From the NCBI RefSeq assembly GCF_001011115.1, contig NZ_CP008874.1, forward strand, positions 868,001 through 932,000: a stretch of 64,000 bases of DNA, written 5' to 3'. This DNA is from Halanaeroarchaeum sulfurireducens (lineage in GTDB: Archaea; Halobacteriota; Halobacteria; Halobacteriales; Halobacteriaceae). Numbering within the stretch: the stretch's first letter is position 1; each line of letters begins with the position of its first letter. Both the position numbers and the translations under genes were made by a program. Shown piece after piece: positions 15,604-39,754 of this stretch. Below the pieces are notes generated by a model, which searched no databases, was not told the origin of the DNA, and saw only the letters and a list, made by a program, of their open reading frames with translations.

Positions 15604-16398
15604 CGACACGTTCGTGTATCGGGCTCTGTAACCCGCATTCGAATGCGCATTCTCCGGGTCGCACAGCACCTCTATCCCGACACGACGGGTGGCGGGCAGT
15701 ACCACGTGCACGCGATGAGTCGGGATCAGGCGGCCATGGGCCACGACGTGACGGTGCTGACCACGCGGGTCGAGGAGTCACTGCCGCGGGTCGAGCACAC
15801 CCACGGGTACCGGGTCGTGCGGGTGTCGCCCGAAGTGACCATCGCCGGGAACGACGTCTCGCCGGCGGTGGGTGGGTACCTGTGGGACCACGCCGACGAG
15901 TACGACGTGGTCCACGCGCACTCACATCTGTACTTCGCGACGAACCTGGCGGCGTAAAAGGAGGCTCGGGGACGTTCCGCTCGCGATCACGAACCACGGG
16001 CTCTACAGCCAGTCGGCCCCGGAGTGGGTGTTCCGGTGGTACCTGCGGACGTTGGGCCGGTGGACGTTCGAGCAGGCCGACGTGGTCTTCTGTTTCACCG
16101 AGACGGACGAGGCCCGAGTGCGGGACCTGGGCGTGACGAGTCGGCCGAGGGGGTGCCGCGGACGGTGCTGGAGGCGATGGCGTCGGGAGTGGGAGTGGTG
16201 GTGAGCGATCTGGAGCAGGTCGCACCCATCGTCGGCGACGGGGGTGTGACCGTGCCCGTTGGCGACACCGCGGGGTTCGTGAAGGGGCTCGAAACGGTGC
16301 TCGACGGACGGATGGGGGACCCGCGGGCGCAGATCGCGGGGCAGTTCGACTGGGCTGAGACCGTCGAGGGGACGACTCGGGTGCTCGAAGCGTTGTAG
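15604..16398 (+). pseudogene. GT4 glycosyltransferase pseudogene (contains 5' fragment copy 2)
   Basis: The gene starts at the ATG at 15643 and reads well to FATNLAA, then hits TAA at 15955. The frame shifts by one and continues as LGDVPLAITNHGLYSQ and WTFEQADVVFCFTETDEARVRDLGV to about 16140. It then jumps directly to SAEGVPRTVLEAMASGV and runs to LEAL at 16398. Compared with the 30453-31196 copy, about 130 residues of the nucleotide-binding domain are missing at the junction near 16140. One frameshift plus one deletion make it non-functional. Its first 120 bases, with leader from 15604, match the other three fragments. Confidence 0.88.
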
Positions 16399-17934: not shown

Positions 17935-18015
17935 CGGTCACGAGCGCGGTACCTGGTGCTGTGCAGTCTGGAACGACAGACAGCTCACACCGTCGCCCAG
18001 TCGATCACCGACACG

Positions 18016-18342
18016 TCACTCGCCATCGGTCTCGGTCAGAAAGGTCGACGTATCCCGCTCCATGGCCGACTCGAAGGCCCCTCTCTCGGCAGTCATGTGG
18101 TCGATCTTCTCGCCGAGAAGCACTCGAGCGACGTCCTCGTCGATGTCGCCACGACTGTATCGTTCGTAGACCCATATCTCGTCCTGTTCGTCCAATGCTC
18201 GCCTGAGCATCTCGACCAACCCGGTCCGGGCGAGTTCGCTCACGTTAACCCCGCCGATATGAATCTGATCGAGGAGTTCTGCAGCCTCCTTCTCGGCCCC
18301 GGCGCGAAACTGAATCGTTTCATCGTATTTCGATCCGCTCAT
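18016..18342 (-). CDS. Orphan RHH-like antitoxin, duplicate of 21731-22057
   Basis: 108 residues starting MSGSKYDETIQF from 18342. The protein is mostly helical and acidic in its C-terminal part (VYERYSRGDIDEDVARVLLGEKIDHM), and carries a short N-terminal strand plus helix that fits a ribbon-helix-helix. It is identical, except for one or two residues near the end, to 21731-22057. That twin overlaps a PIN toxin; here no toxin follows and the downstream bases lead only to the DUF234 ATPase gene. It is therefore an orphan copy that may still neutralise the other toxin. Confidence 0.75.
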   Translation of the reverse strand: MSGSKYDETIQFRAGAEKEAAELLDQIHIGGVNVSELARTGLVEMLRRALDEQDEIWVYERYSRGDIDEDVARVLLGEKIDHMTAERGAFESAMERDTSTFLTETDGE

Positions 18343-18473
18343 ACGGTATCGTTTGGCTCGCGCGGAGTTATATGTTATGACGTGTAATGAATTGTTCGTA
18401 CACGCTCGCGGATCTCTCGGACCGCCTCGCCGGAATCGACTTCGACGTGGACGGCCAGCTTCTCGAGTGCATC
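18016..18473. repeat. 458-bp direct duplication (copy I; copy II at 21731-22188)
   Basis: The segment matches 21731-22188 at a constant offset of 3715 bases, with no insertions or deletions and only a few substitutions. It includes the RHH-like gene and remnant C. The right part (18415-18473) is more diverged. The duplication breaks exactly at the 3' end of the antitoxin gene, where the toxin starts in copy II. Confidence 0.85.
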
Positions 18474-18487
18474 CCCGGGGGGGGGGG
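18375..18487 (-). pseudogene. Antitoxin-like remnant C with G11 tract
   Basis: The minus strand reads DALEKLAVHVEVDSGEAVREIRERVRTIHYTS then TAA (18375-18377). Upstream the frame is lost in a run of eleven G at 18477-18487. It is the same family as remnants A, B and D and lies upstream of the RHH-like gene. Confidence 0.5.
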
Positions 18488-19393: not shown

Positions 19394-19596
19394 ACAGGCG
19401 CAAAACCTCGCCGTTTACGGCGTTGACGAGACGCAAAGCGTCTCGTTCGCACACCAGAACGCGAAGCGTTCTGGGGACGGGGATACGCGCCGTCACAGGA
19501 TGACACCTTCCACCGAATACTGCACGGCTGGATATTCCACGTCCAATCAATATCTTTAATGCTAAATACTCCATAAGCACTTATGGATACAGTCAG

Positions 19597-20865
19597 ATGC
19601 TGGAGACAACTCGCACCTATCGAGCAAAAATCGTCAACCACCCCCAAGTGAGTGACGACCTCGATGAGTGCGGACACTCAGCATCGAAACTGTGGAACGT
19701 CGCCCGCTACCACTCCGAGCAAGAATGGGACGAAACTGGAGAGATTCCGTCGGAAGCCGACCTCAAGCGTGAATTAAAAGACCACGAACGCTACAGTGAC
19801 CTCCATTCTCAGTCAAGTCAGCGCGTTCTCGAAGAACTCGCTGAGGCGTTCAACGGATGGTTCAAAAAGCGCAAGAACGGTGACAGAGACGCGAATCCAC
19901 CCGGCTACCGCAAACGAGGCGACAACCACCCACGCTCCACCGTGACGTGGAAGCAGAACGGCATCAAGCACGATTCCAAACACAACCAACTCCGGCTGAG
20001 CAAGGGCTTCAACCTCAAACAGCACCGCTCGGACTTCATTCTCGCGGAATACGAGACGCGACCAGACGTGACCGTGGAGGACATCCAACAAGTTCGGGCC
20101 GTGTGGAACGGCGACCGTTGGGAACTCCACCTCGTCTGCAAGGTCGAAATTCCCGTTGAGGACGCACCCGGCGACAACACGGCGGGTATCGACCTCGGAA
20201 TCAAAAACTACCTCGCCATCGCCTACGAGGACGGTGACGCTGAGTTGTATCCGGGGAACGTGCTGAAACAGGACAAGCACTACTTCACGCGCGACGAGTA
20301 CGACACTGAAGGCAAGAACGGCCCGTCACGGCGTGCACTCCGCACTCGGCAGAAACTCGCGCGTCGGAAAAACCACTTCCTGCACACCCTCGCTAAGCAC
20401 ATCGTCGAGGGGTGTATCGATCACGAGGTTGGCCGCATCGCTATTGGCGACTTGAGCAAGATTCGTGAGGACGAGAACGGTGACTCTCGAAACTGGGGTA
20501 AACGTGGGAACAAGAAACTCCACGGCTGGGAGTTCGACCGCTTCACCACGTTGCTCGAATACAAGGCCGAAGAACACGGTATCCTCGTAGACCGAACGAG
20601 TGAGCGAGACACGAGCAAGACATGTTCGTGCTGTGGGCGAAAGCTCGATGCGAATCGTGTGGAGCGTGGCCTGTACGTCTGTGAATCGTGCGGAGCGACG
20701 ATGAACGCAGACGTGAATGGTGCGGTGAACATTCGGAGAAAGATAACTCAGAATCCTCCTACGGGGGATATGAGTAACGGTCGTTTGGCACGGCCAGCAG
20801 TCCACCTGTTCAATCAAACCTCGGGGCGTTTCGCACCGAGCGAACAGGTTGGTTGCAAACCGTAA
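19597..20865 (+). CDS. tnpB: TnpB RNA-guided endonuclease, GDL variant
   Basis: 422 residues. It has AGIDLGIKNYLA with the first RuvC Asp (about 195), the zinc ribbon CSCCG and CESCG, and TMNADVNGAVNI with the final Asp. The second RuvC motif, normally (V/I)xxEDL, reads AIGDLSKIRED, so the usual Glu position is Gly. Nearby Glu residues (RED, ENGD, WEFDRF) might substitute. The closest relative in the window is at 60775-62049 (same variant). Activity is uncertain. Confidence 0.87.
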   Translation: MLETTRTYRAKIVNHPQVSDDLDECGHSASKLWNVARYHSEQEWDETGEIPSEADLKRELKDHERYSDLHSQSSQRVLEELAEAFNGWFKKRKNGDRDANPPGYRKRGDNHPRSTVTWKQNGIKHDSKHNQLRLSKGFNLKQHRSDFILAEYETRPDVTVEDIQQVRAVWNGDRWELHLVCKVEIPVEDAPGDNTAGIDLGIKNYLAIAYEDGDAELYPGNVLKQDKHYFTRDEYDTEGKNGPSRRALRTRQKLARRKNHFLHTLAKHIVEGCIDHEVGRIAIGDLSKIREDENGDSRNWGKRGNKKLHGWEFDRFTTLLEYKAEEHGILVDRTSERDTSKTCSCCGRKLDANRVERGLYVCESCGATMNADVNGAVNIRRKITQNPPTGDMSNGRLARPAVHLFNQTSGRFAPSEQVGCKP

Positions 20866-20933
20866 TATCCCAACGCTGAGCGAACCAGAGGTTCGCGACG
20901 TACGCGAATCTTTGATTCGCTTGACTCGGGAAT

Positions 20934-20956
20934 CCTCGCCCTTTAGGGCGGGGAGG
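20934..20956 (+). ncRNA. Right-end hairpin of element A, candidate omega-RNA
   Basis: CCTCGCCC-TTTA-GGGCGGGGAGG forms a strong stem at the element end. In TnpB systems the guide RNA scaffold lies here, with the guide taken from the flanking DNA. Two more perfect hairpins precede it (20881-20895, 20904-20920). RNA production is inferred. Confidence 0.4.
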
Positions 20957-20983
20957 ATGTCAACGCGAGTGCCAGTGATCGAA

Positions 20984-21108
20984 CCGGCACGCTTGTGTAT
21001 CGGGCTCTGTACCCCGCATTCGAATGCGCATCCTCCGGGTCGCACAGCACCTCTATCCCGACACGACGGGTGGCGGGCAAGTACCAGTGTAGGCGATAAG
21101 GCGGGATC
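20984..21108 (+). repeat. GT4 5'-end fragment, copy 3 of 4
   Basis: The leader and start codon region match copies 2 and 4. The coding part is frame-broken after GGGCA (GTACCAGTGTAGGCGATAAG) and ends around 21108, 31 bases from the stop of the PIN gene on the other strand. It is the most damaged copy. Confidence 0.75.
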
Positions 21109-21138
21109 GGGGCCAATCTCGCGGCGCAGTTCCGAACG

Positions 21139-21741
21139 TCAGGGTGGGAGTACGGTGTCGTCGAGAAACTCGGAGCAATCAACGGGGATGCTCGTCCACG
21201 CGTTCTTGACGACCTCGTATCCCGTCCATCCCTCGATCCGGATCATCTCGCCCGTCGCCTCGCAAAATTCGGCCGACGAAATGAACCCGTTGTCGAGGAG
21301 AACGAAGAGTAGATATGGCGGTCCCACGACGTCGACGTCGTATTCGTGCTCTTCGACCAGTCGCCGAATCGACCGGCGGGCAGCCGTATCGAGAAGCGAG
21401 ACCACCCGATACGATTCTGCGTTTTCGGAGAGTTCCTGTCGCAGTGACTTCTCACCTGCATCCGGCCCGTGCGGGCGAGGAACGACTGTCACCCATGTCC
21501 ACGACGACGCATCGTCTTTCAGGTGCTCGAGCACGCGTTGGCTTCCCCGTTTGAGATAGCGTTCGCGGCTTCCGTCTGGAGGGTGCGTGTTCGCACTGGC
21601 GTGCGTCTGTAGTTCGTGTTTGCAGACGTTCGTCGTGGTGAGACTGATCGTGTCCGCCAATAGTTCCCACTGGTCGGTGTTTGCGACGGCGATCAGGGAA
21701 CTCGTATCAGCCAGGAGCGGATGGCGGGAGTCACTCGCCAT
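21139..21741 (-). CDS. PIN-like toxin paired with RHH antitoxin
   Basis: 200 residues. The N-terminus HPLLADTSSLIAVANTDQW has the first PIN Asp, and the Thr-rich TTTNVCKHELQTHA includes the conserved Glu. The C-terminal half (DTAARRSIRRLVEEHEYDVDVVGPPYLLFVLLDNGFIS) is longer than a classical VapC and looks like the haloarchaeal PIN variety. The start overlaps the end of the RHH gene by 11 bases. It is the only copy of this toxin; the second antitoxin copy at 18016 lacks one. Confidence 0.75.
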   Translation of the reverse strand: MASDSRHPLLADTSSLIAVANTDQWELLADTISLTTTNVCKHELQTHASANTHPPDGSRERYLKRGSQRVLEHLKDDASSWTWVTVVPRPHGPDAGEKSLRQELSENAESYRVVSLLDTAARRSIRRLVEEHEYDVDVVGPPYLLFVLLDNGFISSAEFCEATGEMIRIEGWTGYEVVKNAWTSIPVDCSEFLDDTVLPP

Positions 21742-22057
21742 CGGTCTCGGTCAGAAAGGTCGACGTATCCCGCTCCATGGCCGACTCGAAGGCCGTTCTC
21801 TCGGCAGTCATGTGGTCGATCTTCTCGCCGAGAAGCACTCGAGCGACGTCCTCGTCGATGTCGCCACGACTGTATCGTTCGTAGACCCATATCTCGTCCT
21901 GTTCGTCCAATGCTCGCCTGAGCATCTCGACCAACCCGGTCCGGGCGAGTTCGCTCACGTTAACCCCGCCGATATGAATCTGATCGAGGAGTTCTGCAGC
22001 CTCCTTCTCGGCCCCGGCGCGAAACTGAATCGTTTCATCGTATTTCGATCCGCTCAT
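21731..22057 (-). CDS. RHH-like antitoxin paired with PIN toxin
   Basis: 108 residues, near-identical to 18016-18342, starting MSGSKYDETIQF. It precedes and overlaps the PIN gene. The middle contains NVSELARTGLVEMLRRAL, an RHH-type helix, followed by an acidic C-terminus (FESAMERDTSTFL). The pair with the PIN gene defines its likely job; the family name is not certain. Confidence 0.78.
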   Translation of the reverse strand: MSGSKYDETIQFRAGAEKEAAELLDQIHIGGVNVSELARTGLVEMLRRALDEQDEIWVYERYSRGDIDEDVARVLLGEKIDHMTAERTAFESAMERDTSTFLTETDGE

Positions 22058-22089
22058 ACGGTATCGTTTGGCTCGCGCGGAGTTATATG

Positions 22090-22245
22090 TTATGACGTGT
22101 AATGAATTGTTCGTACACGCTCGCGGATATCCCGGACAGCCTCGCCGAAATCGACTTCGACGTGGACGGCCAGCGCCTCGAGTGCATCACCGAGGGACAC
22201 GGAATCGTCATCGAGAGCCGAATCCAGGAACGCTTCGACGTCGTC
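22090..22245 (-). pseudogene. Antitoxin-like remnant D
   Basis: A minus-strand frame opens after a TGA near 22245 and reads TDDVEAFLDSALDDDSVSLG and then DALEALAVHVEVDFGEAVRDIRERV to TAA at 22090-22092. There is no ATG; a GTG at 22200 would give only 36 residues. It is the longest version of the recurring remnant and may be the C-terminal part of a lost antitoxin. Confidence 0.5.
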
Positions 22246-22336
22246 CGTGGAGACTCATCCGCGCCAGTTTCGCTGGGACGCACACGTCTGGTGGTGAGAT
22301 GACTTCTCGTTCGTGGACTCACTCTTTTTGCTATCG

Positions 22337-22693
22337 AATCGGCACGCTTGTGTGTCGGGCTCTGTAACCCGCATTCGAATGCGCATCCTCCGGGTTGCAC
22401 AGCACCTGTACCCCGACACGAAGGGTGGCGGGCAGTACCACGTGCACGCGATGAGTCGGGATCAGGCGGCCATGGGCCACGACGTGACGGTACTGACCAC
22501 GCGGGTCGAGGAGTCACTGCCGCGGGTCGAGCACACCCACGGCTACCGGGTCGTGCGGGTGTCGCCCGGGGTGACCATCGTCGGGAACGACGTCTCGCCG
22601 GCGGTGGGTGGGTACCTGTGGGACCACGCCGCCGAGTACGACGTGGTCCACGCGCACTCGCATCTGTACTTCGCGACGAATCTGGCGGCTTGA
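22337..22693 (+). pseudogene. GT4 glycosyltransferase N-terminal half (5' fragment copy 4)
   Basis: The ATG is at 22380. The frame reads MRILRVAQHLYPDTKGGGQY, VTVLTTRVEESLPRV and FATNLAA, then stops at 22691-22693. It is about 95% identical to the 15643-15957 copy. This is the acceptor-binding N-terminal domain only. The matching C-terminal half without a start lies at 30453-31196 in the same direction, suggesting that the gene was split by the material in between. Confidence 0.82.
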
Positions 22694-22846
22694 AAAGGAG
22701 ACTCCTCCACCACGTAAACGTAGAAAGCCCTCGGCGTTCTCGACTCCCGCGCCTTGCTGCGCGCTTCACTCACTTCGTTCGTTCCAGTGCTTGCGTCGGC
22801 GGGGTTCGTCGAGACCGCCTCGCCCTTTCAATCCACCAGGATATCG
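22694..22846. other. Remnant sequence before IS481-like element
   Basis: No gene. The stretch gcgcttcactcacttcgttcgttcc resembles the terminal sequence of the IS200/IS605 elements at 6840-6870, so a decayed element end may lie here. Confidence 0.3.
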
Positions 22847-22861
22847 GTTGTTCAGTTTTAT

Positions 22862-23881
22862 TGTTCTATATGGTAAAGATTTCGTCGGTCACTCATCGGT
22901 ACTCACCTCGGTTGCGAAGAGGTCAGGAATCTCCGCCTCAGGATGTGGACGCAATCTGTCAAAAGCCTCGTACGGAGTCTCCAACTCGTCCCATTTGAGA
23001 CTCATGTGCGGTCGTTCCTTGTTGTAGAAATCGAGGAATGCTGGAAGCGACTCGAACCGCCAGCGTTGCTTCTCGTAAGTCTGGAAGAACCGCTCGATCT
23101 TTCCGTTGGATTGTGGCCGCCCGACCGAACACAACGAGTGTCTGATGTCATGTTCATGGAGATAGCTCTCGAACGCATGGTCCAGGTCGGGGCGGTCGTC
23201 CTGGTGGGGGTTAACGAACTCGGAGCCGTGGTCAGTGATGACTTCTAAGATTGGCACGTTCGTCTCGAACCCCTCACGAACGGTGTCGAGGAGTTCGACA
23301 CTTTTGCTGGCAGAGCTTGCATCCGTCTCGATCATGTCGAAGACGAACCGAGAGGCGTCGTCTTCGACGCCGAGCACGTGATCACCGCGGTCGTTCTGAT
23401 ACCAATCCATATGGACGGTGACACCGGCGTAATCTCGCTCGAATCGAACCCAGGGCCGTTGACGGCCCTGTTTCTTGGGATTCTCAGTCACGTGTTCGTA
23501 CTCCTCCAGGATGGTATGGACACGGTTCGTGTCGATAGAGATGCCGTCTCGCACCCGTAGAACGTGCGAGACGGCCTCCGCACCGAGATCAAGGGATTGG
23601 TAGAGTTCGAGAATCCGGTCTTCGAGATCGGCTGGATACTCGGCGTAGGGCTTCCGTCCTGGAGTATCGAGGGTTGGAATCTCGTCGGATTCTCTGTATT
23701 CCTTCGCCAGCTGTTGGACGCGTCGTCGACTGACCTCGAATTGATCCGCGACGAATTGGGTGTCCAGGTCATGATCAACAACTCGCTTACATATCCGGGC
23801 AACATCATCCTGCTCCAGCTTCATTTCCCCCGGTCGGTTACCCGGGAGATAATACCGACGAAATCTTTGGCATATACTACA
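22862..23881 (-). mobile_element. IS481-like insertion sequence
   Basis: The element is 1020 bp. The ends read TGTTCTATATGGTAAAGATT on the left and the reverse complement of TGTAGTATATGCCAAAGATT on the right. Over the first 28 bases 24 match inverted, including the shared inner block AAAGATTTCGTCGGT. Direct repeats GTTGTTCAGTTTTAT (22847-22861 and 23882-23896) flank it, a 15-bp target duplication. It sits directly after the stop of the epimerase gene. Confidence 0.88.
22889..23824 (-). CDS. DDE (rve) transposase, IS481/IS3-like
   Basis: 311 residues. The N-terminal HTH is FVADQFEVSRRRVQQLAKEY. The integrase core has Asp in VHMDWYQND (about 139), Asp in VITDHGSEF (about 199) and Glu in NGKIERFFQTYE (about 246), so the catalytic triad is complete. 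No second frame or frameshift signal is present, which favours IS481 over IS3. The element has intact ends and a target duplication, so it may still be active. Confidence 0.9.
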   Translation of the reverse strand: MKLEQDDVARICKRVVDHDLDTQFVADQFEVSRRRVQQLAKEYRESDEIPTLDTPGRKPYAEYPADLEDRILELYQSLDLGAEAVSHVLRVRDGISIDTNRVHTILEEYEHVTENPKKQGRQRPWVRFERDYAGVTVHMDWYQNDRGDHVLGVEDDASRFVFDMIETDASSASKSVELLDTVREGFETNVPILEVITDHGSEFVNPHQDDRPDLDHAFESYLHEHDIRHSLCSVGRPQSNGKIERFFQTYEKQRWRFESLPAFLDFYNKERPHMSLKWDELETPYEAFDRLRPHPEAEIPDLFATEVSTDE

Positions 23882-23898
23882 GTTGTTCAGTTTTATAG

Positions 23899-24828
23899 TT
23901 AGTTGTAGTACTTGACGGTCCGTTTGAGCCCTTCTTTGAAGTCGACTTCCGGATCATACCCCAGTAACTCTTCGGCCTTCGAGATGTCTGCGTGGGAGTG
24001 GCGAACGTCTCCAGGACGAGGGGGATCGTACTTCGGTTCGAGTTCAGTACCGAGTAGATCATTCAACATTTCGACGAGTTCGTTCACCGTCACCCGGTCA
24101 CCACAGGCAACGTTGCACACCTCACCAGTCACGTCGCCTTCTGCAGCGAGAATGTTCGCCTCCACTGCGTTGTCGATATAGGTGAAGTCGCGGGACTGCT
24201 CTCCATCACCGTAAATGACCGGCCGCTCGCCCTCGAGCATCAGATTGATGAATTTCGGGATGACGGCTGCGTACTCCCCGTTCGGATCCTGGCGGGGGCC
24301 GAAGATATTGAAGTAGCGAAGTGCGACCGTGTCGATATCGTAGAGATCGCTGAACTGGACCGCAAGTTTCTCCGTGTAATACTTCGAGAGAGCATAGGGA
24401 GATTCCGGATTCGTCGGCATCGTCTCCACTTTTGGCAACGTTTCGCTGGACCCGTAGACCGACGACGACGAGGCGACGACGGCCGTGTCGACGTCGGCAT
24501 TTCGAGCAGCGTTCAGGACGGTTGCTGTCCCCGTGCAGTTGGCGTCCGTCGAAGTTACGGGATCGTCGACGCTTCGGGGGACCGACGGGACGGCGGCCTG
24601 ATGGAAGAGATAGTCCACTCCGTCGACGAGTTCGGCCATCATCTCGGCGTTACGGACGTCCCCCTCGTAGAAGGAGAATTCGTCGTCGCTGTGGAGTGCC
24701 TCGAGATTGCTCTTTCGCCCGGTTTCGAAGTTGTCGACGCCGCGAACGGAGTACCCTCGGTCGAGAAGCTCGGTTGCGAGGTTCGAACCGATGAACCCTG
24801 CGACACCGGTGACGAGTGCAGTCGGCAT
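23899..24828 (-). CDS. UDP-N-acetylglucosamine/UDP-glucose 4-epimerase-like SDR
   Basis: 309 residues. NAD-binding motif GVAGFIGSN (about 8-16), ASSSSVYG, YALSKYYTE with the catalytic YxxxK, and NIFGPRQDPNGEYAAVIP, which is typical for WbpP/VipB-type UDP-HexNAc 4-epimerases. It shares a transcription direction and 47-base spacing with the NDP-sugar dehydrogenase upstream, a pairing known from GalNAcA synthesis (WbpP/WbpO type). The IS481-like element inserted 3 bases beyond its stop, so the protein is intact. Confidence 0.86.
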   Translation of the reverse strand: MPTALVTGVAGFIGSNLATELLDRGYSVRGVDNFETGRKSNLEALHSDDEFSFYEGDVRNAEMMAELVDGVDYLFHQAAVPSVPRSVDDPVTSTDANCTGTATVLNAARNADVDTAVVASSSSVYGSSETLPKVETMPTNPESPYALSKYYTEKLAVQFSDLYDIDTVALRYFNIFGPRQDPNGEYAAVIPKFINLMLEGERPVIYGDGEQSRDFTYIDNAVEANILAAEGDVTGEVCNVACGDRVTVNELVEMLNDLLGTELEPKYDPPRPGDVRHSHADISKAEELLGYDPEVDFKEGLKRTVKYYN

Positions 24829-24875
24829 ATCTCTGCGTTTCCTCCGAATGGTGTTAGTCTGTCGACTTTGGCCGG

Positions 24876-26162
24876 TTAGAGGCGGACGACGTGCTCGTCG
24901 TCGCGGTGGCTGGTGGCGTTCCGTGTGTCGAAGACGAGCGATGCCTCCTCGACGATGCGGTCGAAATCGAGTGGCGAGTGGTCGGTGACGATAACGACAC
25001 AGTCGGCGGAACGGAGGCGGTCGTCGGTGAGGGGAACCGACTCGTAGGTTGTTTCGCCGATATCGAGTGCTGGAACGTAGGGGTCGTGGTAGTCGACGGT
25101 CGCGTCCCAGCCAGTAAGTCCTTCGACGATGTCGATAGCCGGGGATTCGCGGGTGTCGGAGACATCAGGTTTGTACGCGGCGCCGATGATAAGGACATCG
25201 GCGGTTGAAACCGCGGTTCCGTGGTCGTTAAGCTGGCTGACGATGCGTTGAACGACGTGTTGAGGCATCTCGCGGTTGACGGTGTCAGCGAGATCGATGA
25301 ACCGCGTGTCGACGCCGTGCTCGTTGGCCTTCCAGGAAAGGTAGAACGGGTCGATAGGGATGCAGTGGCCGCCGAGGCCTGGTCCGGGGTAGAACGGCAT
25401 GAACCCGAACGGCTTGGTTTCGGCGGCGTCGATGGCGTCCCAGATGTCGACATCGAGTTCGTGGGCGATTTGCGCGAGTTCGTTGATGAGGCCGATGTTG
25501 ACCGCGCGGAACGTGTTTTCGAGGAGTTTGACGAGTTCGGCCTCGGTGGCGGAATCGACGCGCACGACCTCGTCGAAGACGGGTTCATACAGGGCTTGCG
25601 CGCGGTCACCGCACTCCTCAGTGACGCCGCCGAGGACTTTCGGAATGTCCGTCGGGCCGTACTCCTCGTTACCGGGGTCGATGCGCTCCGGGGAGAACGC
25701 GAGGTACAGATCCTCGCCGATAGTGGCGCCGTTCTCCGCGAGTACGTCCGCGAGGGCGCCTTCGGTGGCGCCCGGGTAGACGGTGCTTTCGAGGACGACG
25801 GTGCAGTCCTCTGGAACGACGGTCGCGAGGCGTTCTGCGGCGTCGAGAACGAAAGAGAGGTCGGGTGTGTCTGTCTTCCGAAGCGGTGTCGGGACGGCAA
25901 TGGATACACCGTCGGCGTCACTAAGAAGGCTGTAGTCGGTAGTGAACGTGAGCCCATTGCGTGTCGCCGTCCAGACTTCCTCGTCGGTGACATCGTTGAC
26001 CGGCGACTCGCCGGCGCGGAGGCCTTCGACCTTGTCGGCGTCGATATCGACACCGACGACATCGTAGCCAGCGTCGTGCATCGCCAAGGCCAGCGGCAGA
26101 CCGACGTACCCCAGTCCGACGACGCCAACACGCGTCTGCTCGTCTTCCATTTGCGCTGTCAA
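24876..26162 (-). CDS. Nucleotide sugar 6-dehydrogenase (UDP-HexNAc dehydrogenase type)
   Basis: 428 residues. It has the N-terminal NAD fold GVVGLGYVGLPLA (about 13-25), VPTPL, ESTVYPGATE, FSPERIDPG, and the catalytic Cys in GPGLGGHCIPIDP (about 262). The family oxidises C6 of a UDP-sugar to the uronic acid with two NAD. GGHCIPIDP and the epimerase next door favour UDP-GlcNAc/GalNAc over UDP-glucose. The start may be 26162 or the internal ATG at 26150. A 106-base gap to the divergent GT4 gene must hold both promoters. Confidence 0.9.
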   Translation of the reverse strand: MTAQMEDEQTRVGVVGLGYVGLPLALAMHDAGYDVVGVDIDADKVEGLRAGESPVNDVTDEEVWTATRNGLTFTTDYSLLSDADGVSIAVPTPLRKTDTPDLSFVLDAAERLATVVPEDCTVVLESTVYPGATEGALADVLAENGATIGEDLYLAFSPERIDPGNEEYGPTDIPKVLGGVTEECGDRAQALYEPVFDEVVRVDSATEAELVKLLENTFRAVNIGLINELAQIAHELDVDIWDAIDAAETKPFGFMPFYPGPGLGGHCIPIDPFYLSWKANEHGVDTRFIDLADTVNREMPQHVVQRIVSQLNDHGTAVSTADVLIIGAAYKPDVSDTRESPAIDIVEGLTGWDATVDYHDPYVPALDIGETTYESVPLTDDRLRSADCVVIVTDHSPLDFDRIVEEASLVFDTRNATSHRDDEHVVRL

Positions 26163-26268
26163 ATACGTTACAGCGGTTTTAGAGTGTCGTTACCCGAACA
26201 GCCTGTCTCGTGCGAACGGAAAACGGAGCTTAAGTCCCCGTGGAATGTTGTCTGGAGTGTGACTGTCG

Positions 26269-27429
26269 ATGACCGGTAGCGAGGAACCGCGCGTGTTCCA
26301 CCTAATCACGCGCCTATTGAAGGGCGGCGCGGAAGCGAAGACGATCGCGACCGTCCGTGGTCTCGACGATTACGCGTTCACCGTCGGGTACGGCGCCGAG
26401 TACGACCCCGGTCAGGTCGAGCTATTGGAGCGCGAGGGGGTCTCGACCAAGCGCTTCTCGTTGATCCGACACTACAATCCCGTGACGGCGGTACCGGCGG
26501 TGCTGTCGCTAGCGCGATACCTCCGCCGCAAGGAGTTCGACATCGTGCACACTCATAGCACGGAAGCCGGCATCATCGGACGGTTTGCTGCAGCGCTCGC
26601 GGGCGTGCCGAACATCGTGCACACGGTGCACGGCGTGCCGTTCGCCGACGATCGGAGTGACGCGTTGAACCGGTTCGTGCTCGCCAGTGAGCGTCAGGCC
26701 GCAAAATACACTGACCGCATCGTTACGAACGCGGACGTCATTGCCGACGAATACTTGGAGCGCGGGATTGGGACGCCCGACCAGTACACGACCGTCTACA
26801 GCGGCGTGGACCTGGACGCGTTTGCGGATGCCGATCCTGTTGAGGATCTACCCGGAGAACGCCCACGCGTCGTCATGGTCGGCCGGCTCGCCGACGGTAA
26901 GGGTCATGGCGTGTTGCTGGATGCCGTTGAGTCGCTGAAGGACTTCGAGGGGTCAGTGTGCGTGGTCGGCGACGGCCCGCTGTACGAATCGCTCGTCGAG
27001 GATGTCGAGGACCGTGGGCTGTCCGACCAGGTGTTCCTCACCGGCTTCCGTGACGACGTCCCGCGAGTGCTCGCAACGAGTGACGTGCTCGTGTTGCCGT
27101 CGTTCCGGGAAGGCACGCCCAGAGTGATCACGGAAGCGATGGCCAGCGGATTGCCGGTGGTGGCTACCGACATTGCGGGGATTCCCGAGCAAGTAGAGGA
27201 TGGGGAGAATGGGTACCTTATTCCGACTGGAGATTCCGAGGCGCTGGCCGACCGGCTTGAGCGTTTAGTGGCTGACAAGGAGCTACGCGAACGTATGGGT
27301 GCGCGTGGACTGAAGGGTGCCGAACGGTTTTCCGTGGGGACGATGGTCGACGAGCTGGACGGGCTGTATAAGGAGTTGCTGGCAGAATATCGGACTCGAA
27401 AGCCGTCGAGAGGAGAGGACGACGGTTAG
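26269..27429 (+). CDS. GT4 glycosyltransferase
   Basis: 386 residues, GT-B fold. The N-terminal LLKGGAEAKTIATV and HTHSTEAGIIGR bind the acceptor. The C-terminal VVMVGRLADGKGHGVLLDAV, VLPSFREGTPRVITEAMASGLPVVATD carry the donor-site Glu pair (EGTPRVITE). It leads a forward run with the phosphatase-fold and deacetylase genes. The sugar is unknown. G+C content is a little lower than in the 0-22 kb region. Confidence 0.9.
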   Translation: MTGSEEPRVFHLITRLLKGGAEAKTIATVRGLDDYAFTVGYGAEYDPGQVELLEREGVSTKRFSLIRHYNPVTAVPAVLSLARYLRRKEFDIVHTHSTEAGIIGRFAAALAGVPNIVHTVHGVPFADDRSDALNRFVLASERQAAKYTDRIVTNADVIADEYLERGIGTPDQYTTVYSGVDLDAFADADPVEDLPGERPRVVMVGRLADGKGHGVLLDAVESLKDFEGSVCVVGDGPLYESLVEDVEDRGLSDQVFLTGFRDDVPRVLATSDVLVLPSFREGTPRVITEAMASGLPVVATDIAGIPEQVEDGENGYLIPTGDSEALADRLERLVADKELRERMGARGLKGAERFSVGTMVDELDGLYKELLAEYRTRKPSRGEDDG

Positions 27430-27481
27430 GCAGCAAAGGAGAACGCAGATGGTTTAGTCGTCGGATGTTGAGTATGAGGAA

Positions 27482-29032
27482 ATGACGACGGTCGTACTCG
27501 GGCTGGACGGGGGCTGTTTCGAGTTGATCCAGCCGTGGATCGACGAAGGAATGCTCCCCACGTTTTCGAGACTGACAGAGGAGGGGGCGGCAGCGGACAT
27601 GCAGAGCTGTCTGCCGCCGGTGACGTGTCCGAACTGGCAGTGCTACGCGACCGGAACGAACCCCGGGAAGCTCGGCGTGTTCTGGTGGGAAGCCGTCGAC
27701 GAGGCCGAGCGGAAAATCGAGAACCGGAGCGCGGCCGGCGATTTCGATGGCACGCACTACTGGCGTTTTTTCGACGGCGACACCGCGGTTGTAAACCTCC
27801 CGACTTCGTACCCACCTTCGGAAATCGACGGAATCCACATCGCGGGTGGCCCTGGCGCCGAACAGACCGGCTACACGTATCCTGAATCGCTGGAACAGGA
27901 ACTGGAAGAGAAGTACGACTACGCCGTTCACCCGGAGAAGATGTCCCTGCTGTCCGGCGACGACCCGGACAACAAGTGCGTTCCGGAAATCTACGATCTG
28001 ATCGACTCCCGGTTCGACGTCCTGGAAGACGAACTTGAGCGTGGCGAGTACGGACTCATCCACGTAACCGTCTTCTATCTGAACGTTCTCCAGCACTTCT
28101 ACTGGGACATGGATGTCGTGAAGCAGGCGTGGGAGCGAATCGACGAGCGCGTCAGTCGGGTACTGGAGATGGACGAGCTCGAGCACTTTTTCGTGATGTC
28201 CGACCACGGTTCCAACGAGATCGAAACGACGTTCCGGATCAACACGTGGCTAGAACAGCACGGCTACCTGCAGACCGAGCCGAGTGTCAGCGACTACCTC
28301 CACAAAGCGGGGATTACACAGGAGCGCGTCAGGCCGGTGCTCGCGAAGCTGGGCGTGGAGTGGTGGGCGCGGCGACTGCTCCCGGATCGCGTACAGATGT
28401 TGCTTCCCGATGATGAAGGATCGGTCGACAAAAGCGCGAAAGGCGACGTCATCGACTGGGACCGCTCACAAGCGGTCGCGAGCGGGCAGGGGCCCGTATA
28501 CGTGCTCGCCGACGATTCTGCGGAGCGCGAGCGCATCGTCGACGAGCTGATTGCTGATTTGGAGGGGGTCACTGACGAGAACAGAACTCCGGTTTTCGAC
28601 CAAGTGTTACGCGGCGAGGACGTGTATAGCGGCCCGCACGTGGACCGCGGACCGGATGTGGTTCTGAACCAGGCTGCCGGCGTTCACATCGAGGGGAAGA
28701 TCGGGAACGACGAAGTGTTCGGCGAACCGAACAAGTGGAACGGCGAGAACAAAGACACGGGTATGTTCATTGGGTACGGGCCAGCCATCGACAAGACGGC
28801 CACGCTACCGGACATGCACATTCTCGACATCGCGCCGACCCTGCTCCACTTACACGGCGAGGATGTCCCTGAGCGAATGGATGGCGAAGTTCACAAGGAC
28901 ATCTTTGATGCGGAGTCGGAACCGGCGAACCGCGACATCTCGCGCGTCGACGTGGAGGTGGACATTGCGGATTCGCAAACGGTTAAGCGCGACGTAACCG
29001 ACCGACTGGAGGACCTCGGTTACATGGAGTAG
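27482..29032 (+). CDS. Alkaline phosphatase-superfamily phosphodiesterase/nucleotide pyrophosphatase
   Basis: 516 residues. It starts VVLGLDGGCFELI (metal Asp, about 8), has PPVTCPNWQCYATG with the nucleophile Thr (about 45), VMSDHG (metal Asp-His, about 241) and a late GPHVDRGPDVVL region. This fits type I phosphodiesterase/NPP. There is no signal peptide, so it would act in the cytoplasm on a nucleotide sugar or a lipid-linked intermediate. It ends RLEDLGYME, a tail shared with three related genes here. The deacetylase starts 1 base after its stop. Confidence 0.87.
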   Translation: MTTVVLGLDGGCFELIQPWIDEGMLPTFSRLTEEGAAADMQSCLPPVTCPNWQCYATGTNPGKLGVFWWEAVDEAERKIENRSAAGDFDGTHYWRFFDGDTAVVNLPTSYPPSEIDGIHIAGGPGAEQTGYTYPESLEQELEEKYDYAVHPEKMSLLSGDDPDNKCVPEIYDLIDSRFDVLEDELERGEYGLIHVTVFYLNVLQHFYWDMDVVKQAWERIDERVSRVLEMDELEHFFVMSDHGSNEIETTFRINTWLEQHGYLQTEPSVSDYLHKAGITQERVRPVLAKLGVEWWARRLLPDRVQMLLPDDEGSVDKSAKGDVIDWDRSQAVASGQGPVYVLADDSAERERIVDELIADLEGVTDENRTPVFDQVLRGEDVYSGPHVDRGPDVVLNQAAGVHIEGKIGNDEVFGEPNKWNGENKDTGMFIGYGPAIDKTATLPDMHILDIAPTLLHLHGEDVPERMDGEVHKDIFDAESEPANRDISRVDVEVDIADSQTVKRDVTDRLEDLGYME

Positions 29033-29033
29033 T

Positions 29034-29984
29034 ATGAGTGACGAGAAGGGCGTGTTCACGATCTCGCTGGACACCGAGCTTGCGTGGGGGACGTTCGACA
29101 AGGGAAACGTTGAGCGGTACGAGGAAGCCTACCGGAACACGCCGGCAGTCATTGATCAGTTATGCGATATCTTCGATGAGTATGAGATTCCAGCTACGTG
29201 GGCGATCGTTTCCCACCTGTTGGAGGACTGTGACGGAGACCATTCCGATCGGACGTCCCCGGACTTGGAATGGGTCGACGATTGGTTCGGCGAGCTGCCG
29301 TGCGCGAGTGGAATGGACAAGGACCTGTGGTACGCGCCGTGGTTAATGGACCGATTACAGGATTGTGAGACGGAGCAGGAGATCGGGCTACACGGCTCAA
29401 CGCACATGCAGCTGGGAGCCGACGGTTGTTCGCGAAAACAAGCCGAGGAGGAGATTAAGGCTGCCGTCGAGACGTTGCAGGCGCACGGTGTAGAGCCGAA
29501 GAGTTTCGTATTCCCGCGCAACGACGTTGGGCACGTTGACGTGCTCCAGGAGCATGGAATTAAAGCCTATCGCGGCGTGGATGATCGATGGTACGAGCGC
29601 GGGTCTATTCCTAATGGCGTGAAACCGCTGCTACGGTTCTTTTACGAAGCAATTCGGGGAACACCACCCGTGGTTGAGCCAGTGGACCGTGATGGTGTGG
29701 TTGAGATTCCTGGGTCGCAAGTGTTCCGTCCCTCTTATGACGGCTGGCAGTACACACCTGGGGAGAGTAGTGTTGCGCGAGCGAAGAAGGGGCTGCAGCG
29801 TGCGGTGGAGACTGGCCGTGTGTTCCACTTATGGTTCCACCCGTTCAATTTGGGACACGATATTGAACAGGATCTGGAGCGAGTGGAGCAAATACTGGAA
29901 TCCGCTGCCAATCTGTGTGATGATGAAAAGCTCGCGTGTCTGCCGATGCGGAAGGTGGTATCGCGAAAGAAGTACCGTCTGTAG
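29034..29984 (+). CDS. Polysaccharide deacetylase (NodB-like)
   Basis: 316 residues. The first metal-binding motif TISLDTELAWG (Asp at about 13) and HGSTHMQLG (His pair about 121-125) are in place, with FVFPRNDVGHVDVL and WFHPFNLG later. These are the NodB deacetylase motifs, which remove N- or O-acetyl groups from sugars. No signal peptide is seen. It is coupled to the phosphodiesterase gene, so both probably act on the same glycan intermediate. Confidence 0.87.
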   Translation: MSDEKGVFTISLDTELAWGTFDKGNVERYEEAYRNTPAVIDQLCDIFDEYEIPATWAIVSHLLEDCDGDHSDRTSPDLEWVDDWFGELPCASGMDKDLWYAPWLMDRLQDCETEQEIGLHGSTHMQLGADGCSRKQAEEEIKAAVETLQAHGVEPKSFVFPRNDVGHVDVLQEHGIKAYRGVDDRWYERGSIPNGVKPLLRFFYEAIRGTPPVVEPVDRDGVVEIPGSQVFRPSYDGWQYTPGESSVARAKKGLQRAVETGRVFHLWFHPFNLGHDIEQDLERVEQILESAANLCDDEKLACLPMRKVVSRKKYRL

Positions 29985-30452
29985 TGACTGGTCACTTAGA
30001 TCCGAGAACCGAAGTCGTTTTACAAGAGCTTCGTTGTCAATATTGGGGAGTCTGGGCCTTCAGACATCTCTTCGATTCTGTTGAATGGGTTGTCCACTCG
30101 TTCCTGAGATCATTCGGCTGTATCCGGATTCTGAATACTGACGTCGTTCATCTCATCGGAGTCGTTAGTGAGATCGTAGTGGTACTAGTAGTCGGTTTTG
30201 GCCTCGTTGAGGGACTTTCTGTAATCTGTGAGGAAGTCGAGTCGCGTTAGTCGGCTCCGTGGATTTTCCTCCCGGAGATAACGATCTTCTTAACACCTAC
30301 ATTCGCTTTTATGTTGATCAGCCATTCTGGTCAAGTATTCGGCGTCGACGAGGTCGAGGTGTGTCGAAGGATGACATTGGCTAGAGCCATTGTGTCGACT
30401 GTCGTCGGCTGGTCTTTTTCTAGTAACAGTGGACACCGTAACAGGATAACCG
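29985..30452. other. Gap with no intact gene
   Basis: 468 bases without a credible gene. Short open frames have no family signature. The base composition is lower in G+C than its neighbours. The sequence joins directly onto a glycosyltransferase fragment at about 30453, so a recombination junction probably lies here. Confidence 0.5.
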
Positions 30453-31196
30453 CGGGCTCTACAGCCAGTCGGCCCCGGAGTGGGTGTTCCGGTGGTGCAT
30501 ACGGAGCCTGGGCCGGTGGACGTTCGATCAGGCCGACGTGGTGTTCTGTTACACGGAGACGGACAAGAACCTGGTGCGGGACCTGGGCGTGCACAGTCGG
30601 ATCGAGGTCGTGCCGAACGGGATCGACACCGAGCGGTTCACCCCGGAGGGTCCGGGGAGCGATCTGGTCAAGAGTGACGGTCCGGTGGTGCTGTTCGTCG
30701 GGCGGCTGGTCGAGGGGAAGCGCCCAGGGATCGCCATCGAGGCTTCTCGGCCGTCCTGAAGGCGTCCCCCGAGGCGGAGCTGTACCTGTATGGAGACGGG
30801 CCTCTACGGGAGGAACTCGAGGTGCAGGTTCGGGAGCTGGGGATCGACGCGTCGGTGACGTTCCAGGGCCACGTTCCCTACGACGAGATGTCGGCGGTGT
30901 ATCGGAGCGGGGACGTGCTGGTGTTGCCGAGCCGGGCCGAGGGAGTGCCGCGGACGGTACTGGAGGCGATAGCGAGTGGGGCCCGGCCTGTAACGAGCGA
31001 CTTCCCGCAAATCCGGTCGATCGTGGCATCGAACGGGCACCTGGTGGATGCAGATTCGTTGGAGGGTATGTTCGATGCGATTTCTTCGGCACTGGGGGAT
31101 GTGGAGAAGGGGGAAGCGTGGCAATCGGTCGACGAAATGGAGTGGGAACGGACGGTCGATCGAACGACCGGATCTCTCGAATCGATCGTTCACTGA
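30453..31196 (+). pseudogene. GT4 glycosyltransferase C-terminal half
   Basis: It begins inside the gene at GLYSQSAPEWVFRW, continues with CYTETDKNLVRDLGVHSRIEV and VVLFVGRLVEGKRPGIAIEA, then shifts frame by one base near 30742. It resumes as AELYLYGDGPLREELEV, and VLVLPSRAEGVPRTVLEAIASG has the donor-site motif. It runs to ESIVH at 31196. It has no start codon and one frameshift. It complements the N-terminal fragment at 22380-22693, lacking only a few residues between the two. Confidence 0.85.
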
Positions 31197-32637
31197 AGGT
31201 AGCCGAGATCCTCGAGTCGGTCTTTCGTTTCTTCTCTCATAACCACGTACCCCGTTTGGTCGGCGCACTCGAAAGAAGTGAGCCAGTCGTCGAGTTTCGT
31301 TCCGAGTTCCTGGCGTATGTCCTCTCTTTCCTCCGAGAGGTCAGTGGTCTCACCGGGATCGTTCTCGGTGTCATAGAGTTCGATCGAGCCGTCGGATCCT
31401 CGGATGAGTTTCCAGCGATCGGTGCGGATGGCTCGAGGTGAACGGTCGTCTTCGTACACTGATTCCGGAAAATCGCCAACGCGCTTCTCCAGGGCCTCCA
31501 TCGAGGGCTGCGGTGCCATGTATTCGGCGATGGCATCGTCGCGTGTTTCGTTGGCGACGGGATGGAACGCGATTCCCTGGAACTGCTCTCGTGCCTCCGG
31601 GGCGTCGCTGTCGAGCACGTCGAGAATCGTCGCCGGAAAGTCGACGAGCTGGACGAGGTCGTCGATTTGATCGTCCTCGAAGGGGCCGCCGTGGACGAAC
31701 AGCGGGATGTGAAGGAGGGTGTCGTAGAGCGGATACTGATGGTCCATCAGACCGTGGTCACCGATGTTCTCTCCGTGGTCACTCCTGACGATGAACAGGG
31801 TATCTTCCCACTCTCCTCTGGCCTTGAGAAGATCGACAATTTCCTCGATCCTCTCTTCGAGGTAGGCTATCTCGGCACGATAGAGGGAACGGAGGATTTC
31901 TAATTCTCCGTCGGTCAGTTCGTCTTTGTTGGCGATGTATCCCCAGGCGTCCTGTGGGACCTCCATCCCTCTTCGTAGGTGACGCCATCAGGGAGGTGCT
32001 CTTCGGCGTGTGCCTTTGGTGGTCGATATTCGAGATGGGGTTCGGAATAGTTTACGAACATGAAAACGAGCGCGAGTTGTTTCTGGTGGTTAGCCAGTCT
32101 TCGATCCACTCGTTGGTCCGGGCGGTGCCGTCGTCTTCGGTCTTCCTGAAGAACTGGCCGTAGATTGCGTTCGTGAGATACGTTACGAGATTGTCATTAA
32201 ATAGTGCCTTCCGGGCCTCGGTAATTTTAGCAATGCCTTCCTCTTGCCGGGCGATACATCCGAGATCAGTGTCGCTCTGGACGTATTACCAGGTCTTGTA
32301 GAAGGTTTCGAAGCCCCGGTCGAAACCGAACTTCTCGCTTACCAAGGTGTTGTTCGAGACGGCGACGGTTTCGTAGTCGTGATTTTGGAGGAGTTCGGGA
32401 AGTGTGGTGAGCGTATCGTTAAGGTGTTTGTGGTCCCGCGTGTGCACCGAGTTTTGCCGATGGTGTTCCAGTGAAGAGTGGACTGTGGGAGGGGAGGGTC
32501 CAAGGGGCGGAAAAGAACGTCCTTCTGAACTCCGCAAACGAGTCGGGGGTCCCAGAGTGTAGTTCTGGACTGCTGGAGGATGATTGGAAGCAACTCGCTC
32601 GAATCGTATTTATTACGATGACTAAGTTTTGGGTCAT
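31190..32637 (-). pseudogene. Sulfatase-like gene, decayed
   Basis: The minus-strand start near 32637 reads MTQNLVIVINTIRAS, and then FFSAPWTLPSHSPLFTGT, the N-terminal active-site block of sulfatase-type enzymes. Fragments in other frames follow: LPELLQNHDYETVAVSNNTL and FGFDRGFETFYKTW around 32290-32420, and FVNYSEPHLEYRPPKAH near 32010-32060. A long clean frame from 31966 to 31190 has VRSDHGENIGDHG and DRWKLIRG, and ends RLEDLGYLQ. At least three frame breaks make it a pseudogene, though a 258-residue C-terminal piece is open. Confidence 0.82.
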
Positions 32638-35973: not shown

Positions 35974-36068
35974 TGAGTGCGAACATGAGGGTTGTTCAGA
36001 TATACCTTAATATTCGCCGTGCGCGGAGGGCAAGACTCAAGATGCTAATCTATTTAGATGAGACATCG

Positions 36069-36266
36069 ATGCACATCGGTTTCATACATCCGTCGTATCC
36101 CTCAGCGGAGGGGACGGGTGCGACACATTCCGCTACGCAGATCGTATACGGTCTTGCCGAAGCAGGTCACAATATCGATGTATATTGTCCAGATCCGCTC
36201 TATATATTCGAACATCAATTGAGCACTTTCTCAGGACATACATATTCCTCTAAATTTAGTGTGTAG
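36069..36266 (+). pseudogene. Glycosyltransferase N-terminal fragment
   Basis: From the ATG at 36069 the frame reads MHIGFIHPSYPSAEGTGATH and IVYGLAEAGHNIDVYCPD, a typical GT4 start, and stops at 36264-36266 after about 65 residues. The rest of the domain is missing, and the next gene is of a different glycosyltransferase type. It marks another recombination edge. Confidence 0.7.
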
Positions 36267-36397
36267 GATGTGAAAAACTTGTACCCAGTAGTCTCGGTAA
36301 CGACAAATTCAAAATTCGTCGCAACTACGTTAAGTTGTTGCCACCACTGGCTAGAACTAAGAGCAAAATATACGATAATGAGGAAGAAGATGAACTC

Positions 36398-37450
36398 ATG
36401 ACTGAGAGAAGGTTAGAAGAATCTGCCGGCAATACCGTAATTTTGGGTTCTCAAAGGTGGCGGACAGGCCCTAATGGTCGATATCTCATCCACTTTGAGA
36501 AAGCTTTCAAAGAAAATGACCAGGTAGATTTAATCCCCTTGTCGAAAAGTGCTTACAAGTTGACTCGGTTCTTTGATATTCTCCGGGGTTCACAGAATGC
36601 CACGTCATTACCTGAGAATTATCAGAAGAAAATAAACAATTTCGGACGCCTTATTGGTCTTTCAGATAAGCCTTATCAATTGCCTTCAATAATACGACAC
36701 AAAGCACGAAATATTGAAAGTATTACACTCTTCGCAGGGCAAATTTATGAAATACGTTTACTTGACCTTATAAATTGGAGAGATAAAACTATCATTTTGT
36801 ACATTGCTGACGCCTGGGAACCCAAATTTAAACGACTGAATACCCTCATAGAACAGTATGATATTGACCATATATTCGCTTCTTATGAGAAAGCTACCAA
36901 ATACTTAAAGGGCCGTGGCCATAAGGCCTATTGGTTGCCTCAAGCAATAAACCCGGAAATATGGCGCGATTATAAATTAAGTAAAAAATATGGACTAATT
37001 CAATTTGGTAGAAAAAATCCAACTTTACATAAATTTGGGAAGGAACATTTTGATAATGAGGATTACATTCATGAATTCATTCACGGGGATATTAATTTGG
37101 CAAAACACATAAATGAGAGTGAATTCACACTATTGGCTCCTCGGAAATTGCAGTCACCAGAGCAGACTGGTGACATTAGTCCAGTAACATTACGCTATTA
37201 TCAAGCTATGGCGTGTAAGTCAATGCCTGCTGGGTTCAAACCCAGGGAGTTTGACAAGGTATTTTCTGATGATATATTCTTCTTGGAGTATGAAAATGAT
37301 GAACAATTCCGAAGTGACATAGAATATTTCAAGCAGCACAAAGAGGAGTATTGGAATCGGATAAATCGGAACTACGAATTAATGATGTCAAACCACACAT
37401 GGCAAAAGAGGGTAAATACTATGTCCAATATCGTCAATAACGAGATTTGA
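36398..37450 (+). CDS. Glycosyltransferase (CgeB/GT1-like)
   Basis: About 350 residues from the ATG at 36398; a TTG at 36335 would extend it, and the frame is open without ATG back to about 36260. It has a GT-B-like middle (IILYIADAWEPKFKRL, HIFASYEKATKYLKGRGHKAYWLPQAINPEIW) and a C-terminal TLRYYQAMACKSMPAGFKP with FLEYENDEQFRSDI, as in CgeB-like transferases. It is strongly AT-rich with many Asn, Lys and Ile residues, so it was probably imported from outside the usual haloarchaeal pool. Confidence 0.78.
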   Translation: MTERRLEESAGNTVILGSQRWRTGPNGRYLIHFEKAFKENDQVDLIPLSKSAYKLTRFFDILRGSQNATSLPENYQKKINNFGRLIGLSDKPYQLPSIIRHKARNIESITLFAGQIYEIRLLDLINWRDKTIILYIADAWEPKFKRLNTLIEQYDIDHIFASYEKATKYLKGRGHKAYWLPQAINPEIWRDYKLSKKYGLIQFGRKNPTLHKFGKEHFDNEDYIHEFIHGDINLAKHINESEFTLLAPRKLQSPEQTGDISPVTLRYYQAMACKSMPAGFKPREFDKVFSDDIFFLEYENDEQFRSDIEYFKQHKEEYWNRINRNYELMMSNHTWQKRVNTMSNIVNNEI

Positions 37451-37730
37451 AACATATTCTTCGACGAATGTATTAAACACACATATAATTTAATACATCG
37501 CTTCAATTAATATGTCTCATCGTTCTATCTTCGCAACTACTATGATTATTGGTTCGCAGGCACCCAATTCGTCTATAGTAAATGTATGCCGGTTCTTTGT
37601 TTCCTAAATTCAATAATATAAAATATCTTCTCAGCCAGCTCGTGAATCAAACCATCTGATTTTCGATAAATCAATGTAATTGCTTACATCAAATTCAATA
37701 GATTGTTATTATCAGGGCATACATCTATAA
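37451..37730. other. AT-rich intergenic region
   Basis: 280 bases with no gene seen. It is low in G+C and forms a sharp composition boundary with the GC-rich dehydratase gene downstream. A TATA-like element lies near its end (catctataag), close to the next start. Confidence 0.5.
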
Positions 37731-37733
37731 GTG

Positions 37734-38795
37734 ATGAATTTCGAAGCGCAACTCAAGGAACTACCAGTGTTCATCACTGGGGCTGATGGATTCGTGGGGT
37801 CTCATCTTGTGGATAGACTGGTAGAATTCGGTGCCAATGTCCATGTTTTCGTCCGCGCAACCTCCAGCGGCGAGCTAAACAACATCAGACACCAATCCGA
37901 AGAGGTAACGGTCCACCGAGGAGATCTCCGAGACAAGCACTCCGTCAGGAAAGCACTCGAGCCGTTCGAAGATCACAGCGACACTCTCATCTTCCATCTC
38001 GCCGCCCAGGCACACGTCGGCGAATCGTGGGAACGACCCTACGAAACCGTCGACACGAACGTCAATGGAACGCTCAACCTCCTCCAGTCGATCGTCGACC
38101 TCGATCTCGACATAGCCAAGTTCGACACGGCAGGCACGAGTGAAGAATACGGGAACGTAAAGGAGGAGATGCAGCACAACCACGAGTTCGACGAGGATGG
38201 CCGCGTACTCCTCAGCGAGCGCTCACCAGTCAACCCAACGAGCGTCTACGCGACCTCGAAACTCGCGGCCGACTTCCTCACGATGAACTACCACGACGCG
38301 TACGGGCTCCCAACTGTCACGACCCGCATGTTCAACAACTACGGGCCTCGGCAGAACCCCCGTTACATCACGGGGACGATCATCACGCAAGCCCTGGAGC
38401 GGGACATCGTCGAACTCGGCAACCTCACACCGAAACGCGACATGTGCTACGTCGCCGATGGCGTCAGAGGTCACTTACACGTCGCACTCGAAGGAACTCC
38501 TGGTGAACAGTACGTCTATGGCTACGGCGAGAACATCTCGATGCAAGAGTGGGCAGACACGATCCTCGAGGTCGGCTCGGAACAGGGTTACTGGGACGAC
38601 CCCGAGATCGTCCAGGACGAGGATCGCTTCCGGCCGGGTGATAGCGACGTCGAAGAACTGCTGGTCGGTTACGACAAACTCAACGAGGAGACTGGCTGGG
38701 AACCAGAAGTGTCCTGGCGTGAGGGGATCCGCCGGACGATCGACTGGTACGCGAACAATCCCGAGAGCTGGTACGGGCGGGTGGACTGGCGATGA
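37734..38795 (+). CDS. gmd: GDP-mannose 4,6-dehydratase-like SDR
   Basis: About 353 residues from the ATG at 37734 (a GTG at 37731 is adjacent). It has the NAD-binding [12 protein letters not shown] (about 14-25), [24 protein letters not shown] and [11 protein letters not shown] with the catalytic YxxxK, followed by [13 protein letters not shown]. These features resemble GDP-mannose 4,6-dehydratase. It overlaps the GDP-fucose synthase-like gene by 4 bases and a NUDIX GDP-mannose hydrolase-like gene follows, supporting GDP-mannose as substrate. A dTDP or UDP-sugar dehydratase is the alternative. Confidence 0.8.
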
Positions 38796-39751: not shown

Positions 39752-39754
39752 ATC

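Follow-up and report, generated by a model that had tools for sequence, protein, structure and literature searches.

Deletion-coupled insertion, in which foreign DNA has entered a chromosome and resident DNA has been lost, was reported in 64 cases in Haloquadratum walsbyi, without a target sequence and by a mechanism given as unknown; deletions at short direct repeats were also reported (PMC3119063). In the cell-wall island of the same species, homologous recombination and mobile elements are described as sources of surface-gene diversity (PMC4535781), and in the N-glycosylation clusters of Haloferax, closely related organisms differ by the gain, loss and recombination of glycosylation genes (PMC5867893). 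For Halanaeroarchaeum sulfurireducens M27-SA2, a genomic island rich in glycosyltransferases has been reported (PMC4866403).

The locus described here lies in a window of 64,000 nucleotides (positions 868001-932000 of the H. sulfurireducens chromosome, the whole stretch that was analysed) and consists of two parts of a GT4 glycosyltransferase gene with a block of glycan genes between them. We consider it probable, and the most likely of the readings, that a single GT4 gene was truly split by a transferred glycan block. On that reading the locus resembles the deletion-coupled insertions of H. walsbyi in that foreign DNA would have entered the chromosome and resident DNA would have been lost without direct repeats or a target, with short-repeat deletions nearby and surface-layer gene islands as the regions hit (PMC3119063). 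Unlike those cases, which were inferred from two strains carrying different DNA at identical positions, the present one is read from a single genome with the help of a block copy found elsewhere, and the deletion is just 24 bp, with one gene cut. The Haloferax clusters and the H. walsbyi cell-wall island share with it the turnover of surface genes, whereas the excerpt on Haloferax describes no split glycosyltransferase genes or 5' stubs (PMC5867893), and the H. walsbyi island has other gene content, with no split GT4 gene mentioned in the excerpt on it (PMC4535781). The split gene is a clear but ordinary example of known surface-sugar gene reshuffling, not a new process.

Two parts of a GT4 gene

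The 5' half, N22 (22325-22704, plus strand), comprises a promoter region and the first ~108 codons of a GT4 gene. Its open frame runs from 22380 to a stop at 22693 and has FATNLAA at its end, as the sequence-only reading had it, and its DNA is 94.6% identical over 22335-22704 to P15 (15579-16398, plus strand), an uninterrupted but decayed paralog in which both GT4 parts are still joined. The 3' part, C30 (30448-31196, plus strand), extends from codon ~119 to the stop with one frameshift near 30740; it reads GLYSQSAPEW, where the sequence-only reading had placed its start (30453), and its homology to P15 starts at 30448 and continues to 31196. The two are complementary in Pfam, N22 covering positions 2-87 of Glyco_transf_4 and C30 covering positions 123-170 together with Glycos_transf_1, and when combined they hold both GT4 domains. 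Among solved structures, an intact ortholog finds matches in GT4-like enzymes, PimA among them (E 3.8e-20), and other families of the same order contain intact relatives of 354-396 codons. A search of the whole genome with the N and C parts returned four N and two C pieces of this subfamily, all in the window and all on the plus strand, and no further copy.

Trees of the N and C parts were built with 30 intact genes and a stub from Halobellus captivus. Both N22 (support 1.0) and C30 (support 0.84) are sister to P15, and the wider clade around each is largely the same in both trees. An origin of the halves from different glycosyltransferases, the outcome that the sequence-only reading had held to be incompatible with a split gene, did not emerge; judged by sequence comparison, N22 and C30 are members of one GT4 subfamily. 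That reading had also noted that the two break points lie close together in P15, which stands, although the distance is 43 bp (15955-15997) and not about 60 bases. By the ends of homology, 24 bp (15968-15991 of P15) are missing between N22 and C30, and the breaks do not overlap. With uniform breakpoints, two independent breaks would fall at most 24 bp apart with a chance of 4.3%, or 2.2% without overlap. The other stub breakpoints that we measured lie at codons 28-65 and ~150-160, none of them near codon 110-119.

These figures bear on an alternative that we consider unlikely, namely that two different broken copies stand here and the split is only apparent: N22 would be one of several 5' stubs and C30 a second copy, whose 5' half was lost in a deletion that also took the start of the neighbouring sulfatase gene. 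Fragments of the 5' end do multiply in this region (N12, N20 and P15 besides N22), and with four of them present, the one beside the block could be just another; moreover, in one haloarchaeal genome (G187) and in Halobellus captivus, a stub precedes a separate full copy that stands next to a sulfatase gene. The halves also differ in their divergence from P15 in the longer BLAST alignments (20/370 for N22 vs 23/168 for C30, p 0.002), and this would point to two distinct copies, barring an exchange of sequence between P15 and N22. However, two independent breaks 24 bp apart are improbable, as calculated above, and the gap fades once only cleanly aligned columns also present in the Halobellus outgroup are counted (23/320 vs 14/124, p 0.18); on these columns, changes on the halves' own branches likewise do not differ significantly (12/320 vs 7/124, p 0.43). 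Coding columns give 22/319 vs 19/153 (p 0.055), and the difference, whose significance varies with the alignment chosen, is not decisive. Cross-species recombination at the 5' end was considered as a cause of the strong N-terminal conservation and rejected, the third-codon-position identity of N22 to the 30 intact genes not being raised at the 5' end.

We retain the alternative of two broken copies because no uninterrupted GT4 gene was found at this locus in relatives. The congener (G001) has no GT4 match and hardly any of the flank, and it was set aside as a source of an empty site; of 24 other genomes of the same family, three gave weak GT4 matches only (best E 1.4e-6). A sulfatase C-terminal open reading frame (31190-31966, minus strand) converges on C30 and overlaps it by a few bases, and a convergent sulfatase gene also stands beside the GT4 gene in the relatives' stretches L015, L016, L070, L073 (GT4 frameshifted) and L091, so C30 is probably at its ancestral place. 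In eight further stretches (L017, L018, L019, L064, L065, L066, L071 and L093) the sulfatase gene lies farther away or is absent, and in that of Halobellus captivus (L088) another full GT4 gene adjoins it.

The sequence-only reading had offered, as its other option, that two copies recombined and lost the middle. This is not needed, P15 being simply an uninterrupted, decayed paralog with a frameshift, an internal deletion and a C-terminal stretch that belongs to a different type of allele: its last part is 73-75% identical to two relatives (L045 and L049), against 50% to C30. P15 can itself be seen as a chimeric pseudogene, in which N- and C-terminal parts of different allele types meet at a short repeat-like joint (16134-16182). 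Two shorter 5' fragments were absent from the earlier account, as was the sulfatase wreck at ~30000-30440. N12 (12948-13092, plus strand) carries the promoter and ~30 codons and lies before VapBC genes; N20 (20978-21112, plus strand) follows a TnpB element and has the same break codon. Beyond that break, at codon ~30, the sequence is unrelated in the two, N12 being followed by the VapBC genes and N20 by a PIN-like gene on the opposite strand, so named by its appearance and lacking a Pfam match.

Other features were observed in the window. A 467-bp duplication (18015-18481 and 21730-22196, 97.9% identical) includes a small antitoxin-like gene, and its second copy lies 130 bp before N22. Two TnpB elements of the IS605 OrfB type (19478-20965 and 60658-62102) are ~66% identical, each with a similar 40-nt right end. 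The part of the glycan island at 36001-48000 has a G+C content of ~40-48% in much of its length, against ~60% around it.

The glycan block and its relatives

All the genes that had been named between the halves are present: the IS481-like element, epimerase, dehydrogenase, GT4, phosphodiesterase and deacetylase. The block encodes an NAD-dependent epimerase/dehydratase (23899-24828, minus strand; 79.5-80% amino acid identity to G024/G023), a UDP-glucose/GDP-mannose dehydrogenase (24876-26162, minus; 84%), an intact GT4 glycosyltransferase of another subfamily (26269-27429, plus; 84-87%), PDE27, a member of the type I phosphodiesterase/nucleotide pyrophosphatase family (27482-29032, plus; 87-88%), and a polysaccharide deacetylase (29034-29984, plus; 80-81%). 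G023 and G024 are two genomes of genus g5 in the same family, Halobacteriaceae, and both are without the split GT4 gene. From epimerase to deacetylase the block is colinear with the corresponding stretches of G024 (L062) and G023 (L063), with 77-83% DNA identity.

A sulfatase gene follows the deacetylase gene in both genomes, and the homology of the block likewise goes on, through a degraded sulfatase gene (29990-30440, minus strand), to 30440. Three remnants, at 30060-30217, 30330-30414 and 30402-30440, correspond to L062 positions 12445-12602, 12742-12827 and 13472-13511, all in one open reading frame for a sulfatase of 441 aa. The last of them (33/40 matches) lies near the start of that frame and was matched in G024 only, no match to this right-edge segment being found in G023. 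Between 30414 and the last piece the remnant has an internal deletion at the short direct repeat TCGTCGGCTGG.

The identity of the five block proteins to G023/G024 (79.5-88%) is unusually high for this pair of lineages. In a baseline of 34 homologous gene pairs, taken from 18 stretches of the window genome (360 kb) and 20 of G023 (400 kb), median identity was 59%, with a single pair at 80% or above. This excess over sampled genes, together with the lack of a PDE27 match in the congener at E 1e-30, argues for transfer rather than descent; the source was probably a Halobacterium-like relative, if genus g5 may be taken as Halobacterium-like. The same observations weigh against a quite improbable alternative in which the block is native, once stood beside a DUF4330 gene and came to lie inside the GT4 gene through inversion or translocation. 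We keep relocation as a rival because the epimerase gene of G023 and G024 has a DUF4330 gene close by, and the relative of that gene in the window (58551-59948, in the region of ~58.6-60.2 kb) stands 28 kb rightward of the block. A native block is at odds with proteins far closer to G023/G024 than sampled genes are, with the missing phosphodiesterase match in the congener and with the repeat at the left end of the block, which is single here and common in g5.

The block was not found in the plasmid and phage collections, no record of which covers 80% of it. Plasmids carried only distant GT4 relatives (<60% identity), the phage collection gave no match to 22300-23000, and PADLOC matched only candidate or partial models, in flanking genes.

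Block ends and the IS481 element

N22 is followed by 16 nucleotides for which no homology was found (22705-22720) and then by a dispersed palindromic repeat element (22721-22846, inverted ends 22723-22744/22808-22829), which forms the left end of the block and begins ~17 bp after N22 (22721-22723). Genomes of genus g5 have up to ~20 matches each to this repeat of ~125 bp, the present genome one; the repeat was also observed on plasmids of several haloarchaea. At the right, the block ends at 30440, 8 bp before C30 starts at 30448. The breaks abut, the trees put both halves in one subfamily, and the block, a gene cluster known independently, adjoins N22 as well as C30; all three support the entry of a cassette into the gene, one of the two options that had been put forward from the sequence.

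The same reading had proposed to compare the two ends of the block for a repeat in common or a recombinase target. None was found when each edge region was searched separately; the sole target duplication is that of the IS481-type element and lies inside the block. This element (22862-23881, minus strand) has an open reading frame (22889-23824) with an rve integrase core, 28-nt terminal inverted repeats and exact 15-bp target duplications (22847-22861 and 23882-23896). Its position on the left of the block would fit a role for it in bringing in the block as a compound element or mediating its entry by recombination. We regard this as highly improbable, since its own inverted ends and the intact duplication indicate that it hopped in beside the epimerase gene later and on its own. 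In addition, this genome holds no second IS481 copy with which to flank a cargo as in a compound transposon, and a repeat search of the right edge region found nothing resembling the IS481 ends.

The split-gene reading, in turn, agrees with the hallmarks of deletion-coupled insertion: the DNA at the site appears foreign by its protein identity, 24 bp of resident DNA are missing relative to P15 if the halves come from one copy, and no end repeats or target other than the IS481 duplication were found. In a single event, ~6.7 kb of DNA, from the epimerase gene to part of the sulfatase gene, would have been acquired from the Halobacterium-like relative and joined into the GT4 gene at ~codon 110-119, with 24 bp lost, by repeat-free end-joining of the kind named deletion-coupled insertion in Haloquadratum. 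The IS481 hop, the loss of the internal sulfatase piece at its short direct repeat and frameshifts in both GT4 halves may have followed later.

5' stubs in haloarchaea and a proposed surface-glycan exchange

In a survey of 392 genomes, searched with the first 46 residues and with the 71 residues just after the break and paired by hand, 15 N hits had no later part to go with them among the matches listed. They represent 12 kinds, with genus g11 counted as two types: N12, N20, N22, g11 type A (G056, G045, G087), g11 type B (G292, G227), G305, G276, G059, G187, G242, G156 and G317. C30 was the one broken C piece without an N part. Among these listed matches, and with kinship ignored, 5' stubs outnumber 3' stubs by 12:1 (p 0.003), by 10:1 without the internal deletions in G059 and G317 (p 0.012), and by 9:0 outside the window. 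Later breaks occur in G386 and G270 (codon ~150-157) and in Halobellus captivus (~160), which is outside the 392-genome sample. In the latter (L088, 10001-12226), the GT4 stub has a nearly identical leader, and behind it lie genes for a formyltransferase, a deacetylase, a further full-length GT4 and a sulfatase.

In eight cases, six without transposases, the first downstream gene that could be recognised has the same direction as the stub: GT2 in g11 type A, GT4 in g11 type B and in G317, formyltransferase in Halobellus, an ABC transporter in G386, VapB after N12, and transposases in G276 and G242. It runs against the stub in six (G305, G156, G270, G059, N20 and N22), and no downstream gene was recognised in G187. 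Promoter capture as a general rule was accordingly rejected, the direction of the next gene being without bias. Stubs are present in several genera, with glycan or export genes following in the same direction in g11, Halobellus captivus and G386. It could be suggested that the GT4 5' end (core promoter and 30-170 codons) is a recurrent breakpoint for surface-glycan cassette exchange that leaves promoter-bearing stubs, a proposal that we find quite doubtful. Nothing on point about haloarchaeal glycosyltransferase pseudogenes or stubs was found in the literature listings searched. The recurrent 5' stubs, if they truly are independent events, would indicate a favoured break region.

For the organism, the locus gives a base-level picture of one archaeal surface-glycan exchange, with the piece gained, its landing site and its cost. 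Variation in glycan genes may influence virus sensitivity as well as mating among haloarchaea, according to the Haloferax study (PMC5867893). With the foreign surface-glycan genes still intact, the cell would probably have swapped one glycan step for another set.
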